From an uncultured Isosphaeraceae bacterium (lineage in GTDB: Bacteria > Planctomycetota > Planctomycetia > Isosphaerales > Isosphaeraceae): a DNA stretch of 64,000 bases. The stretch lies in the NCBI GenBank assembly GCA_945957605.1, contig CAMFLR010000008.1, positions 62,001 to 126,000 of the forward strand. Reading direction: 5' to 3'. The notes beneath the pieces are model-generated. The model was not told the DNA's origin, made no database searches, and was given only the letters and a program-made list of their open reading frames with translations. How positions within the stretch are numbered: position 1 is the stretch's first letter; every line of letters begins with the position of its first letter. The translations under genes and the position numbers were made by a program. Shown here piece by piece: positions 1,443 through 7,553 of the stretch.

Positions 1443-2450
<1,008 letters not shown>

Positions 2451-2700
2451 GGGATCACGGTTCTCTGAGGCCGGGGCGGTTCTGGGAAAACAGCGAAGCC
2501 GCCGGGGAAGCCGCGTCAAAAATGCGCGTCACAGTCTAACCAATCGCTTAGGGCTCGCCCAGCCACCGGACCCGGACACACGACCCGGCGAACGGGTTCA
2601 AGCCGGGGGGCCGGCTGTTCCGATAGTTGGCGTTAAGGAAGGTCGACGGACGCGCCGGTGCGAACCGACGAGCCGGGCGTTCGTCAGGAGACGATGTGCG

Positions 2701-3918
2701 ATGGATCGAGACCGTTTCGCCCTGCCACACGCATCGACTTCCGCAGCCGGCGCGAACAAAACCGCGGGGCGCCTCATCTCTAGCCGTCTCAAGGGGCGGC
2801 ACCTCCTCGCGAAAGCCATCGACCACCACACGGGGCCGGTGCTGCTGACCGGCGACTACGGCGTCGGTAAAACCCGACTCCGCCAGGCCATCGAGGCTGA
2901 CTCAAAACCAGGCCGGTCGTGGGTGAATATCGACGTCGCACCAGCCACGACGGTGCCTGCGTTCTATTCACTGCTCAATCACGCGCTCGGCGTCGACGAT
3001 ACGTCACTCGACCGAGCCAAGCTGAGCGAATACCTCGGGTTGGAGCGGCTCGACAAATCCGAGTGGATTCTCGCCGTCGACGAGGCTCACAACCTCGACG
3101 ACCTCGTGCTCGAAGAAATCCGCCTGCTCTCAAACCGACTCGGGACTGGTGATGGCTTCGCGGCGATCTTGCTCGTTGGCCACACGACGCTCGTCCGCCG
3201 GCTTTCCTTTCGCGCAAACGAGGGGTTGGCCGAACGAATCACCGCTCACGTGCATTTGAGCCCGTTCGACGCCGATGAAGTCCTCGAACTGCTCAAACAC
3301 CACGACGCCAGGCGAGAATGGCCGGCCGAACTGGTCGAGCGAATTCACATCGTGACCGAGGGGCGTCCCGGGCGAATCGCCAGGCTGCTCCCGTTGATCG
3401 ACGAATCGGCGATCGAATCGGCTCCGGCCGCCAAAACGAAGGCGGACGCGCCCGCCGAACTTAAATCACAGCCCGTTGAGAGCTTCGAGCTCCGTCCCGA
3501 GCCGTTGGTTGGGCCGTCGAAACCGCCCCTTGTGGTGGAAGATGGGCTGATCGAAGTCGGCTGGGATTCCGATTCTGATGTAGATGAGTTGCTTGAAGCT
3601 GAAGACGAGTTAGAATCTGCCGACTCGCTGGTCGCGGAGATGGACTCCGACCACGAGGATCCGGAGCCAATCGAAGAGGGCGAGGAGCGGCTCAACGATC
3701 ACTACGCCGCGCTTCAGGCCTGGCAAGATTGGTCGGCTGCACACGAAAAGCCTGGCGACGTCGCCCAGCGACGCTGGCCGGAGGTCACTGAATCACAGGA
3801 CGAGACACCGTCGTCGCCAAGAGAAAAGACGCCAAACCTGTGGGTCGACGAGGAACACGGGTTTGCGCCATTGAGCCGACTTTTCGGGCGCAAGACACAG
3901 GAAAACGAGGCGGAATAA
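2701..3918 (+). CDS. ExeA-like AAA ATPase with acidic C-terminal tail
   Basis: P-loop ATPase of the ExeA/TniB-like AAA type, 405 aa from ATG 2701. Longer in-frame starts exist back to 2449, but they would overlap the divergent ABC gene's start and have a non-coding look. Walker A is GDYGVGKT (51-58), Walker B is ILAVDEAHN (about 123-131), and an AAA lid follows (residues 190-240). From about residue 260 the protein becomes a long acidic, low-complexity linker rich in Glu, Asp and Ser. It ends in a short region with WVDEEHGFAPLSRLFGRK. ExeA relatives act in secretion or transposition; no such partner is next door, so the job is unknown. It is divergent from the ABC operon. Confidence 0.8.
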   Translation: MDRDRFALPHASTSAAGANKTAGRLISSRLKGRHLLAKAIDHHTGPVLLTGDYGVGKTRLRQAIEADSKPGRSWVNIDVAPATTVPAFYSLLNHALGVDDTSLDRAKLSEYLGLERLDKSEWILAVDEAHNLDDLVLEEIRLLSNRLGTGDGFAAILLVGHTTLVRRLSFRANEGLAERITAHVHLSPFDADEVLELLKHHDARREWPAELVERIHIVTEGRPGRIARLLPLIDESAIESAPAAKTKADAPAELKSQPVESFELRPEPLVGPSKPPLVVEDGLIEVGWDSDSDVDELLEAEDELESADSLVAEMDSDHEDPEPIEEGEERLNDHYAALQAWQDWSAAHEKPGDVAQRRWPEVTESQDETPSSPREKTPNLWVDEEHGFAPLSRLFGRKTQENEAE

Positions 3919-4070
3919 CTCCAAGTCGTCGACTTGATGATATGATACTCGTGGAGATAGGCCCCGTGTACGTGGGTAGAATCCGTTGATGAAACAGTCC
4001 TCACGAGGCCGAAACCTATGGCAGTGAACGGCGATTGTCGTAAGACGTCGCAGCTTGCTGCTTTTTCTTC

Positions 4071-4218
4071 AAGAGCAGGTGCCGCCGGGTTGTGGAATTT
4101 GGTGCTCCCAGTTCCCTCACTTTCCCGAGTGAGGGCCGCGACAGCGGCTGATCCCATCTCGTGATCCATCTTTCGGGTGGCTCCCGGGCGAGACGCCTCA
4201 ACGACGGCACCTGCTCTT
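4071..4218. other. Multi-hairpin foldback, candidate structured RNA
   Basis: The 405-bp gap 3919-4323 lies between two convergent genes and has no convincing coding sequence. It holds a perfect 14-bp inverted repeat, AAGAGCAGGTGCCG (4071-4084) with CGGCACCTGCTCTT (4205-4218). Inside are four local hairpins: CCCTCACT/AGTGAGGG (4114-4135, 6-nt loop), GCCGC-GACA-GCGGC (4135-4148; it shares one base with the first, so they compete for it), CGGG/CCCG (4174-4186) and GGCG-AGA-CGCC (4187-4197). That is the layout of a closed multi-branch RNA. Neither flank has a terminator-like T run. A 15-bp palindrome, CAAGTCGTCGACTTG, sits at 3922-3936, followed by TATGAT at 3941. No known RNA family was recognised. 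Confidence 0.5.
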
Positions 4219-4323
4219 GCTACTCTTACTCGCTGAGATTGACACAGTTTCCGTTTGGTATCAGCACTTGTGAATTCGCTGTCCCCGGCGTGAAGCGCCG
4301 CGAAGTCCTCCGTCACGCGTTCA

Positions 4324-4908
4324 TTAGCGTTGCCCGTCCGGCTTGATCTGGCCGACGCACAGCCAGGTATGCGGCGGATCTGATCGGATCGGTTCGCTCA
4401 CGGCTGAGCCGACGTAGACGTGATGCTCTTTGGCTTCTGGCGAGTCAGGGGTGGCGAACACTGCGCGTAAAATCAGCGGGCCGTCGAGGTGGTCGAGGAG
4501 TTCTGCGGGAATGCTCCAGGAACCGTCCTGTAACTTGAGGTAGTCTGTCCTTGATTTACGCGGTTTGAGCTCAGAGTAATCCGGCCAATCTAAGCTGTAG
4601 GTATACGCATTTCCATTTGGCTTGATCTGATAGTGAGATTCGCCGTTGGCGGTGAGCACCGTAACTTTCAAAGTAATAAGTCCGTGGTCCCAACTGCCGC
4701 CCCGTGACCAGAGTCGGACGGTACGCGGCGAATCGTTGATCAATTCGACGGTCGCGACCTGCGCTTCGCGAAACCCTGGCTGCGGCAATTTGAGACGAAC
4801 AGCGACATGCGGCGGCCCCTTTTCTGAAGAATTGGGCGTGCATCCGATCGTAAAGATCGCGAACAATAGAAGCACGACAGGAAGGTTGCGGTTGAGCCAT
4901 TTGCACAT
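4324..4908 (-). CDS. Predicted lipoprotein, unknown function
   Basis: Hypothetical lipoprotein of 194 aa. The start at 4908 (MCKWLNRNLPVV) gives a compact signal peptide ending in a lipobox-like FTIGC at about residues 19-23. A start six codons upstream is possible but would precede the charged region. The mature part looks like a beta-rich soluble domain, with AVRLKLPQPGFREAQVATVEL and PRTVRLWSRGGSWDHGLITL segments. It contains no catalytic motif I recognise. Sorting to the inner or outer membrane is inferred from the lipobox only. No operon partner; the neighbouring small lipoprotein gene is upstream on the same strand. Confidence 0.7.
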   Translation of the reverse strand: MCKWLNRNLPVVLLLFAIFTIGCTPNSSEKGPPHVAVRLKLPQPGFREAQVATVELINDSPRTVRLWSRGGSWDHGLITLKVTVLTANGESHYQIKPNGNAYTYSLDWPDYSELKPRKSRTDYLKLQDGSWSIPAELLDHLDGPLILRAVFATPDSPEAKEHHVYVGSAVSEPIRSDPPHTWLCVGQIKPDGQR

Positions 4909-5093
4909 GGTTCCGCCCGTCGGCATAGATTGATCCGGCGCTCATCGCTATGGATCGAGACGCGGCCGGCCAACTAGATAGACGCCAGTTTTGTCGAGTT
5001 CGTTGTCAGAAATCCTAAAATTCGATGGAGGTAGGTCCACAAGCATTAAAGACGGAGAGGCGCAATCGGCGGTCAGGTTCCTCGACTGTCTGG

Positions 5094-5545: not shown

Positions 5546-6298
5546 ATGTCGAATCCCGACGCGTCCGCCTCGCAGCCAAGACTTCTCGTGTCGCTCGCGA
5601 CTTACGACGAAGCTCAAAACCTCGAAGCGCTCGTTCATGAGATTCGCAATCACGCGCCCCTCGCCGAAATCCTCGTCATCGACGACAATTCGCCCGACGG
5701 CACTGGCCAGATCGCCGATCGCCTACGCGACACATTTCCCGGCATCCACGTCATTCATCGCGCCAACAAGCAAGGGCTTGGCACGGCCGTCGTCGCCGGA
5801 ATGCAATACGCCATCGATCACGGCTTCGACTACTTCCTCAATCTCGACGCCGACTTTTCTCACCCGCCCCGATTTATCCCTGCCTTACTCGCAGGGATGG
5901 ATCGTCACGATGTGATGATCGGCTCGCGCTATGTTCCGGGCGGTGGTGTTGAGGGGGAATTCAATTTCAAGCGCAAGTTTATGAGCACGGGTATCAACTG
6001 GTATGCCCGGCTCTTGCTTGGATTGCGCACCAAGGACAACAGCGGCTCGTTCCGGTGCTATCGCGTATCGAAGTTGAAACTCATCGACTTCTCAAAAATC
6101 AAGTCGCGCGGTTATTCGTTCATGGAAGAGATTCTTTACTGGTGCCGCACCGTTGGCTGCACGATGGGCGAAACGCCTATTCTCTTCGAGAATCGCCGGT
6201 CGGGATATTCAAAAATCAACAAGCGAGAAGCCGTTAAGGCGTTGCAGATTATTCTGTTGCTCGGATTGGGCCGGCCGTTCGTCAAACGAACCGCATGA
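5546..6298 (+). CDS. Polyprenol monophosphomannose synthase-like glycosyltransferase (GT2)
   Basis: GT2-family enzyme of the Dpm1 type, 250 aa, predicted to transfer mannose (or another sugar) from a nucleotide sugar to polyprenyl phosphate at the cytoplasmic membrane face. The GT-A fold is clear: VSLATYDEAQNL near the N-terminus, the DDNSPDGT nucleotide-binding motif at about residue 48, LDADFSHPP carrying the metal-binding DxD at about 102, GSRYVPGG at about 130, and the C-terminal RRSGYSKI characteristic of Dpm1. There is no C-terminal membrane domain, so it is the short soluble form. It has no operon partner; a terminator follows 6 bp downstream but serves the opposite strand best. Confidence 0.9.
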   Translation: MSNPDASASQPRLLVSLATYDEAQNLEALVHEIRNHAPLAEILVIDDNSPDGTGQIADRLRDTFPGIHVIHRANKQGLGTAVVAGMQYAIDHGFDYFLNLDADFSHPPRFIPALLAGMDRHDVMIGSRYVPGGGVEGEFNFKRKFMSTGINWYARLLLGLRTKDNSGSFRCYRVSKLKLIDFSKIKSRGYSFMEEILYWCRTVGCTMGETPILFENRRSGYSKINKREAVKALQIILLLGLGRPFVKRTA

Positions 6299-6377: not shown

Positions 6378-6773
6378 TCAGACCGTTTGGCCGTCGTATT
6401 CGCGGACGGTCACATAAACTTCCTGGCAGGTTTCCGCGATGCGGTCGCCGAGACCTTGGTGCTTGGTCTCGAGCTGCGTCGAATACATCGCCAGGATCTT
6501 GCAGAGGAAGGTCGCTTGCGAGCCTTCTGCTTCGTGCACGAGCTGGTCGAGCGAATCCTCGATCTGGTCGGCGAGGTAGAGCAGGAACTGGGCCTGGCCC
6601 TTCACGTCGGCGAGTGCCTTGAAGAGGTCGGGCGAGATCGACGGAGCGGGTGCTTCGTCGTCGTAAGGCGTCTCGACGGGCGGTGCCGAGGTCACGCTGA
6701 GTGCTGAGGACGGACGGGACGAGACGAACGCGTTGCCGATCGGTGCGCGCTGAGCGGTGGCGGAAGCATTCAT
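6378..6773 (-). CDS. Small helical protein, paralogue of its upstream neighbour
   Basis: 131-aa protein of unknown function. The ATG at 6773 overlaps the stop of the preceding gene by 4 nt (ATGA), which indicates translational coupling. The first 50 residues are low complexity (Ala, Ser, Pro, acidic). Residues about 52-120 are predicted helical, starting LFKALADVKGQAQFLLYL and containing FLCKILAMYSTQLE. That helical block aligns with residues 20-90 of the upstream protein: matched positions are QF-x-x-YL, FL-x-x-L-I/L-x-M and the following L pattern. The two therefore look like products of a tandem duplication, perhaps forming a heteromer. No enzyme motif, signal peptide or membrane segment is visible. 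Confidence 0.75.
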   Translation of the reverse strand: MNASATAQRAPIGNAFVSSRPSSALSVTSAPPVETPYDDEAPAPSISPDLFKALADVKGQAQFLLYLADQIEDSLDQLVHEAEGSQATFLCKILAMYSTQLETKHQGLGDRIAETCQEVYVTVREYDGQTV

Positions 6774-7081
6774 GCTGCGTCTCCGTTCTCGTGGAAGGAG
6801 GAGGCGTTGTCCTCGCTCACCGCGGCTTCGAGCGAGTGGCAAAGCTCGCCCACGAGCCGCATGTTCTCGCATTCGACTGCGAGATTGGAGGCGTGCATTT
6901 CGATCAGTTGGCGGAGGAAGATTTTTGTACCTGGGTCGCTCTCACCCTGGAACCGATCGACGTCGGCCACTGCCGCGCGAACGAGGTAATCCATGAATTG
7001 GAGCTTGCCTCGGATCGAGGTGCAGAGTTTCTCGAGGTGCGAGAGGTCCGAACGATAGGGTGCGGAACTAAGTTGTGACAT
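6770..7081 (-). CDS. Small helical protein, first of a paralogous pair
   Basis: 103-aa protein of unknown function. The start chosen is ATG 7081 (MSQLSSAPYRSDLSHLEKL), preceded by AAGGAGAG. A longer frame runs upstream to 7450 but reads as non-coding, with Cys- and Arg-rich sequence. The body is helical: LEKLCTSIRGKLQFMDYL, then FLRQLIEMHASNLAVECENM. It overlaps the next gene by 4 nt. Its helical core aligns with that of the downstream protein, so the pair probably arose by duplication and diverged. No membrane segment or enzymatic motif was seen. The long leader upstream contains two hairpins (see 7209-7256). Confidence 0.72.
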   Translation of the reverse strand: MSQLSSAPYRSDLSHLEKLCTSIRGKLQFMDYLVRAAVADVDRFQGESDPGTKIFLRQLIEMHASNLAVECENMRLVGELCHSLEAAVSEDNASSFHENGDAA

Positions 7082-7208
7082 CCTTATCTGCTCTCCTTGA
7101 TCCGATAGGACTTGCGCCGGCGGGGATTCCATTGATCTGTCCAAGAACTGGACGAGATGAACCGGGACAATCCCTATATAACTCCTTCGCAAGCGCGTGA
7201 CGATAAGC

Positions 7209-7256
7209 GTCAGCAATCGTGCTGACCTACTCGGAACGAGAGTCAGCGTGACTCTC
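7209..7256. promoter_or_regulatory. Tandem hairpins in a divergent intergenic region
   Basis: The 472-bp gap 7082-7553 separates the divergent small-protein operon and aroF, and I see no gene in it. Two perfect hairpins stand 11 bp apart: GTCAGCA (7209-7215) with TGCTGAC (7220-7226), loop ATCG, and GAGAGTCA (7238-7245) with TGACTCTC (7249-7256), loop GCG. They share a GTCAG/CTGAC-like core. There is no T run after either, so they are not simple terminators. They could be an operator pair or part of a structured 5' leader for either gene. Confidence 0.45.
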
Positions 7257-7553
7257 TGGTCAAGAAGATAACATAGGACCCGATAACCGTCCGAAAACCT
7301 AGAGCAGTAAAGAACTTGTGACAGAACTCTGTCGTTGCAATCGGCACAATTGTTACGTTCAGAACTTTTTTGGTAATCGTTCAGGTTGGCGTCAGCATTC
7401 GAACCAGCATGATGCCGTTTTTCAGCAAAGCGCATGGATTTGCGCTTCACGTCAGCCTAGCGACCGGTTAAACTCTTCGGTTCACTCACGAACGAGGTCC
7501 AGACCCGGCCGCACGCACGCTTGCGCGGGTTCGACAGCGAGGGCGACGCGACG

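Follow-up and report, generated by a model that had tools for sequence, protein, structure and literature searches.

Introduction

Small RNAs with C-rich sequences in hairpin loops have been described in distant groups of bacteria. In the case of Xanthomonas, the available text on sX13 reports an RNA of 115 nt that has three stem-loops with apical C-rich loops and a 5' region free of structure, and that represses mRNAs carrying G-rich motifs near the start codon and does so without Hfq (PMC3771888). Conserved C-rich hairpin loops (UCCC) lying in unpaired regions are also ascribed, in the text accessible to us, to RNAIII and the other UCCC-signature RNAs of Staphylococcus aureus (PMC2837412). 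The Rhodopirellula-1 motif is introduced, in the accessible part of its source, as a candidate structured RNA of Planctomycetes and Proteobacteria (PMC2864571). Regarding Isosphaeraceae, our literature search returned no report of a small RNA of this family, nor of an RNA from an intergenic region of Singulisphaera acidiphila, nor, among the titles and abstract openings listed, of the RNA presented here, and the accessible main text of two large surveys of intergenic RNAs (PMC8632094, PMC11109978) contained none of five planctomycete terms.

The locus studied here lies in a stretch of 64,000 nt from an uncultured Isosphaeraceae bacterium, hereafter the window. An original prediction had pointed out a closed foldback at 4071-4218 and had offered two readings for it, a multi-branch structured RNA or a small non-autonomous mobile element. 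The first reading is supported and the second is not: relatives covary, and most genomes of one bacterial family have conserved the RNA. The foldback makes up the 3' part of a longer conserved RNA, about 240 nt in length (about 3984-4221), so that the predicted extent was too short; the conserved unit begins near 3984. Altogether, we describe a conserved structured RNA that is not bound to either neighbouring gene and is probably a regulatory RNA of Isosphaeraceae.

Results

Structure and parts of the RNA

The perfect 14-bp arms of the predicted foldback were found at 4071-4084 (AAGAGCAGGTGCCG) and 4205-4218 (CGGCACCTGCTCTT), and the pairing can be extended to 17 of 18 positions (4070-4087 with 4202-4219). 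The MFE structure of 4060-4225 also contains the local hairpins expected within the closing stem, including the one with a GACA tetraloop (GGCCGC-GACA-GCGGCT, 4134-4149). The fold of this segment reaches -75.4 kcal/mol on the + strand (z -4.6) and -78.0 kcal/mol on the - strand (z -5.2), with 0 of 200 dinucleotide shuffles as good in both cases. The GACA hairpin had been regarded as a notable feature, but its sequence is not conserved, as GACAGC occurs in 1 of 33 aligned rows, the window's own. The conserved hairpins are instead those at 4094-4115 and 4116-4133.

The whole RNA was described by a covariance model, R1, built from six training sequences, one of them the window, which itself matches with 186.5 bits. 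A second covariance model, R2, covers the 3' domain only and was built from 33 sequences. The parts of the RNA are as follows, with the basis of each in brackets:

3984-4221, + strand: whole conserved RNA as modelled, about 240 nt (R1 covariance model)
3986-4014, + strand: 5' conserved element, UGAUGAAA ... CCGAAA (conserved columns in 23 aligned sequences and anchored column count)
4024-4058, + strand: hairpin P0 (covariation)
4070-4086, + strand: 5' arm of the closing helix P1, holding GCAGG (covariation, conservation)
4094-4115, + strand: hairpin P3, with apical UGCUC at 4103-4107 (fold, covariation, conservation)
4116-4133, + strand: hairpin P4, with a C-rich apical loop, UCCCG at 4123-4127 (fold, covariation, conservation)
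4134-4149, + strand: GACA-tetraloop hairpin of the window, sequence not conserved (fold, aligned rows)
4150-4202, + strand: variable region, folding differently between genomes (alignment and folds of relatives)
4203-4219, + strand: 3' arm of the closing helix P1, followed by a pyrimidine-rich tail (covariation, composition)

Sequence conservation is concentrated in a few short motifs. Two of them are invariant (33/33 rows each): GCAGG, within the 5' arm of P1, and UCCCG, which places a C-rich motif in the apical loop of P4. UGCUC in the loop of P3 is exact in 29 of 33 rows. Despite these invariant motifs, the identity of the window to the other rows drops to 48%. The tail 3' of P1 averages 84% C+T and 41% T over 12 nt in 35 sequences, against 53% C+T and 23% T in a control 100 nt further on. 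The 5' element lies outside the modelled helices; it is conserved in many genomes and absent or unrecognisable in several. The variable region is absent in both genomes of genus g21, where the short 3' domain (102 and 99 nt; L052 in G044 and L053 in G043) consists of the closing helix, P3 and P4 only. This short form is perhaps a natural minimal version of the RNA.

As to coding potential, a mechanical ORF on the - strand (3714-4316) crosses the stretch that had been described as free of genes. It is not read as a gene because, from relative to relative, the distances between the conserved motifs fall in all three phases, and a conserved protein was rejected on the same grounds for either strand. 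Stop counts alone are not decisive, some + frame being open in 29 of 33 rows and some - frame in 33 of 33. A leader peptide starting in UGAUGAAA was dropped by eye, as some genomes lack the ATG and the stops vary. The 5' element has a UGAUGA...GAAA arrangement, which we take to recall a hammerhead core; this candidate was likewise discarded, since no stem II was seen by eye between the motifs and no Rfam model matched.

Covariation of the helices

Covariation of P1, P3 and P4 was evaluated in a sequence-only alignment of 33 rows, of which 26 had been gathered with R1 and 7 by blastn, a collection that favours the helices of R1 and the + strand. Its counts leave out L043 (in G012, cut by the contig end), L061, and the later finds L111, L112, L113 and L120. 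For P1, P3 and P4 together, 87.8% of the cells are paired, compared to 44.6-55.3% with the partners slid by 1-3 columns, and 77 cells carry two-sided changes, compared to 13-32 in the slid controls. The covariation score of these helices was reached by 0 of 500 shuffles, the changed-pair count by 1 and the pair-type count by 2; given that the rows are mutually related and that R1 had supplied 26 of the 33, these figures are not to be taken as probabilities. P1 has the strongest support, with 91.8% of its cells paired. Support is weaker for P3 (81.1%, a test of its four inner pairs only) and for P4 (80.8%, in a register that fits the rows with shorter loops, those with longer loops, the window included, being off by one there).

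The hairpin P0, likewise aligned by sequence alone, behaved similarly, with 87.8% of cells paired against 33.3-56.5% in controls and two-sided changes in 5 of 7 pairs; 0 of 500 shuffles reached its covariation score, and 4 and 10 reached the two counts. The expectation that relatives would show covariation thus holds for P0 and P1, and more weakly for P3 and P4. An outer helix enclosing P3 and P4 was left out of the model: pairs from the same genome gave -7.6 kcal/mol and pairs swapped between genera -7.4 kcal/mol, in a comparison whose 3' segment started too far downstream in part of the rows. An alternative in which the P3 loop UGCUC would pair with the 5' arm GAGCA found no support, as four rows with an AAGCA arm still have the UGCUC loop.

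Strand of the RNA

The + strand is favoured, not proven. Across the 33 rows, G-U cells outnumber A-C cells by 109 to 46, and by 59 to 15 within P1, and the + fold is the more stable one in 27 rows. The pyrimidine-rich tail after the + strand 3' arm points the same way, and - strand cmsearch scores are far lower, with a model that was itself built on the + strand. Against these observations stands the reading that the functional RNA is the - strand, whose loops GGGAGCA and CGGGAA resemble the binding motif of CsrA-like proteins and could bind such proteins. It would agree with the window itself, where the - strand folds as well as the + strand, in fact slightly better, and with the 6 of 33 rows, the window among them, that fold better on the - strand. 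It would also agree with the 7 rows found by blastn, which show no excess of G-U over A-C (14:14, and 5:4 in P1). The whole excess comes from the 26 rows found with the + strand model (95:32, and 54:11 in P1), a subset that may lean because of how it was collected. Model selection is nevertheless unlikely as the source of the excess, because the RNA was found in 37 of 45 genomes, most of them at the same locus; this is an argument and not a test. Overall, we regard a - strand RNA as very unlikely.

Distribution among genomes

A nucleotide search of the family gave matches in 8 of 45 genomes, with conservation extending upstream to about 3984. With R1, matches were obtained in 34 of the 45 Isosphaeraceae genomes, a single one in each except for a weak second match in G013 (L061), which does not align and was dropped. 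R2 matched 36 of 45; it added G002, G007 and G040, none of which had been used in building it, and missed G012, where the contig ends inside the RNA. The union of both models amounts to 37 of 45 genomes and 18 of the 21 genera among them. Named records with the RNA include Singulisphaera acidiphila DSM 18658, Singulisphaera sp. GP187, Paludisphaera soli and assemblies labelled 'Isosphaeraceae bacterium'. In Singulisphaera acidiphila DSM 18658 the match is placed at about 1,852,253-1,852,483 of NC_019892.1, on the minus strand of that record. G003 has a degenerate copy (22.9 bits) upstream of its glycosyltransferase gene. Neither R1 nor R2 matched in the four g18 genomes and G011, and the RNA is absent from G005 and G021, even though the AAA-ATPase and glycosyltransferase genes that usually flank it still adjoin there. 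Its absence in G005, G021 and genus g18 suggests that the RNA is dispensable.

Outside the family, searches were run with stricter filters, which lose weak matches: 1 of 352 genomes of a class sample gave a marginal match (G240, E 1.3e-3, threshold 0.01), and in a phylum sample (392 genomes, threshold 0.001) G448 alone matched besides the window's own genome, again marginally (E 2.4e-4). The G240 and G448 matches are read as chance, both lying inside long ORFs and neither having GGUGCUCCC. A pattern scan over one genome per species (84,980 species) found 17 stretches, 14 planctomycete and 3 other. The 14 planctomycete stretches score at least 61 bits with R2. The hits in Actinoplanes and two Brevundimonas, unscored by R2 at the place of the pattern, were set aside. 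As far as these searches reach, the RNA is confined to Isosphaeraceae and has been kept there over long evolutionary times.

These results also bear on the reading as a non-autonomous mobile element or decayed repeat, which the terminal inverted arms around a structured core had suggested. Such an element should be found in further copies; the 8.8-Mb genome has one full-length match, the other 14 genome matches spanning 15-29 bases. In most loci the RNA occupies the orthologous site, its helices show compensatory changes, and the phage and plasmid collections hold no record covering 80% of it. Because the RNA is single-copy and orthologous in place, this reading is rejected, with practically no probability left to it. 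An integron attC site was dropped by eye, no core sites being seen.

Gene neighbourhood

The genes around the RNA in the window are:

2449-3918, + strand: AAA-ATPase gene (Pfam AAA_22), the usual upstream neighbour (Pfam, relatives' loci)
4324-4926, - strand: lipoprotein-like ORF, a label given by eye (no Pfam match)
5546-6298, + strand: family 2 glycosyltransferase gene, the usual downstream neighbour (Pfam, relatives' loci)

In the window the RNA does stand between convergent genes, as originally described, the AAA-ATPase gene ending at 3918 and the ORF at 4324-4926 running on the - strand. This layout is not typical: the usual order, on one strand, is AAA-ATPase gene, RNA, glycosyltransferase gene. 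In 26 of 33 aligned loci the AAA gene precedes the RNA on the same strand, at a distance of 6-254 nt in 21 of them and of 320-689 nt in the other 5, and the glycosyltransferase gene is downstream and co-directional in 25 of the 32 aligned loci other than the window; some loci with a missing neighbour are contig ends.

Several side observations concern these genes. The ORF at 4324-4926 lies between the RNA and the glycosyltransferase gene. It is probably a recent arrival in the window, because it has no tblastn match in 34 relative loci. Further on, the - strand ORF at 6378-6872 has no Pfam match, and many loci contain relatives of it close to either the RNA or the glycosyltransferase gene; the - strand ORF at 6770-7450 resembles, by eye, a relative of it. 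At 1198-1296, between two - strand ORFs, there are overlapping inverted repeats (28 nt, 86%; 18 nt, 83%) with a common TTGTCCAGG-like unit.

The position behind the AAA gene in 26 loci also fits a part of its mRNA. The RNA could then be a cis element of the 3' region of the AAA-ATPase mRNA, namely an elaborate 3' end acting as terminator or stabiliser, or a small RNA cut from it, and the pyrimidine-rich tail after P1 would suit such an end. There are, however, loci that depart from this arrangement. For G017, no AAA gene was found within 8.0 kb on the upstream side, where a divergent gene of methylthiotransferase type (Pfam Radical_SAM, UPF0004, TRAM_2) adjoins the RNA. In G031 both flanking genes lie on the minus strand, the upstream one being a response regulator by Pfam and thus divergent, and the AAA gene is about 5 kb off on the other strand. 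The AAA gene is 2.0 kb from the RNA in G030 and 6.3 kb in G032, and G005 and G021 keep it without the RNA. A terminator, moreover, would not need to keep loop sequences. We consider a 3'-region element improbable. In G017, a + strand ORF without Pfam match overlaps the divergent upstream gene.

Co-directionality with the glycosyltransferase gene would likewise be expected if the RNA were a leader or riboswitch of that gene. This is contradicted by genus g17, in which no glycosyltransferase was found in the 1.5-2.5 kb downstream of the RNA in any of the 6 genomes and a convergent gene follows, and by the window, where a convergent ORF and 1.3 kb intervene. In G031, too, no glycosyltransferase was found within 2.1 kb downstream. 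A leader or riboswitch is, in our judgement, hardly probable.

As a whole, the RNA is not tied to either neighbour and persists without one or the other. This independence argues for a promoter of its own and for a free-standing RNA gene.

Proposed mechanism

We favour a free-standing gene for a trans-acting structured small RNA, encoded on the + strand, whose C-rich loops act on G-rich mRNA sites, a reading we hold with slightly less than even confidence. The RNA would be transcribed from its own promoter; a simple consensus scan of window positions 3850-4400 gave neither a sigma-70-like promoter nor a terminator, and the predicted lack of a terminator T run was borne out by a simple scan of the window. 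In the transcript, the 5' conserved element and hairpin P0 would precede the 17-bp GC-rich closing helix P1, which would cage P3 with its apical UGCUC, P4 with its apical UUCCCG, and the variable arm. P1 and the pyrimidine-rich tail probably also form or protect the 3' end. Through the rigid cage, the C-rich loops with their UCCC signature could be offered to several mRNAs at G-rich sites that resemble Shine-Dalgarno sequences, and loop pairing in trans would then lower the translation of these presumed targets, repression being the sign of regulation that we infer. By analogy with known RNAs, pairing of C-rich loops with G-rich sites is, in our view, the likeliest mechanism, the chances for it being about evenly balanced.

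A search for such sites before the start codons of 63 gene-like ORFs, restricted to the window and of low power, gave GGGA in 7 of 63 against 5 and 7 in the two controls, GGGAG in 4 of 63 against 0 and 3, and CGGGAA in 0 of 63 in all sets. That target enrichment was not seen before these ORFs would be in line with the main rival to an antisense mechanism, in which the RNA serves as a ribonucleoprotein scaffold: the invariant loops and the GCAGG arm would be bound by protein or hold a tertiary fold, and no mRNA pairing would take place. A protein-binding or tertiary site would account for the compact caged fold and for loop and arm sequences that are retained in 18 genera. On the other side, neither usual neighbour always travels with the RNA, which is still compatible with a protein encoded elsewhere. 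We judge this role possible and, on balance, unlikely. A step further, the caged multi-hairpin RNA might represent a new structural class specific to Isosphaeraceae, a ribonucleoprotein core and not an antisense regulator, in which the long closing helix would hold the sequence-invariant loops and the invariant GCAGG arm; this we rate as decidedly unlikely.

Discussion

Planctomycetota are a phylum with unusual cell biology, and a conserved RNA with invariant loops provides a defined entry point to RNA regulation in planctomycetes. In addition, an intergenic stretch that would otherwise stay blank receives an annotation from the covariance models in 37 of the 45 genomes, among them the complete genome of Singulisphaera acidiphila DSM 18658.

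The original prediction had recognised no family, and the Rfam scan agrees: no family of Rfam 15 reached its gathering score in the window, and with E values up to 10 only two matches appeared in 3900-4330, at 14.4 and 11.9 bits and thus far from their cut-offs of 33 and 36. 6S RNA, tmRNA and RNase P RNA are comparable as conserved structured bacterial RNAs. None of them matched in the window, and each scored over cut-off elsewhere in the same genome (6S RNA at C3:361893-362053, tmRNA at C3:163090-163454, RNase P RNA at C6:362195-362633). As a separate observation, Isosphaeraceae 6S RNA scores close to or below the Rfam cut-off: 16 of 45 genomes exceed it, and 36 of 45 have a match at E <= 0.001, so that 6S RNA seems to be under-called in this family by the standard model.

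On this evidence we have a new RNA family whose kind, the structured bacterial small RNA, is already known. The Rhodopirellula-1 motif appears, in the accessible part of its source, without an Rfam accession, so the Rfam scans of the window may miss it. RNAIII is larger and is also an mRNA. Going by the accessible text, the RNA presented here resembles RNAIII in its UCCC loops and in its supposed way of action; it differs in coming from another phylum and in matching no Rfam family. With sX13, likened here by its description in the available text, it shares a strong structure and apical C-rich loops on stems, whereas sX13 measures 115 nt and our RNA about 240 nt, with its hairpins caged by a 17-bp helix.
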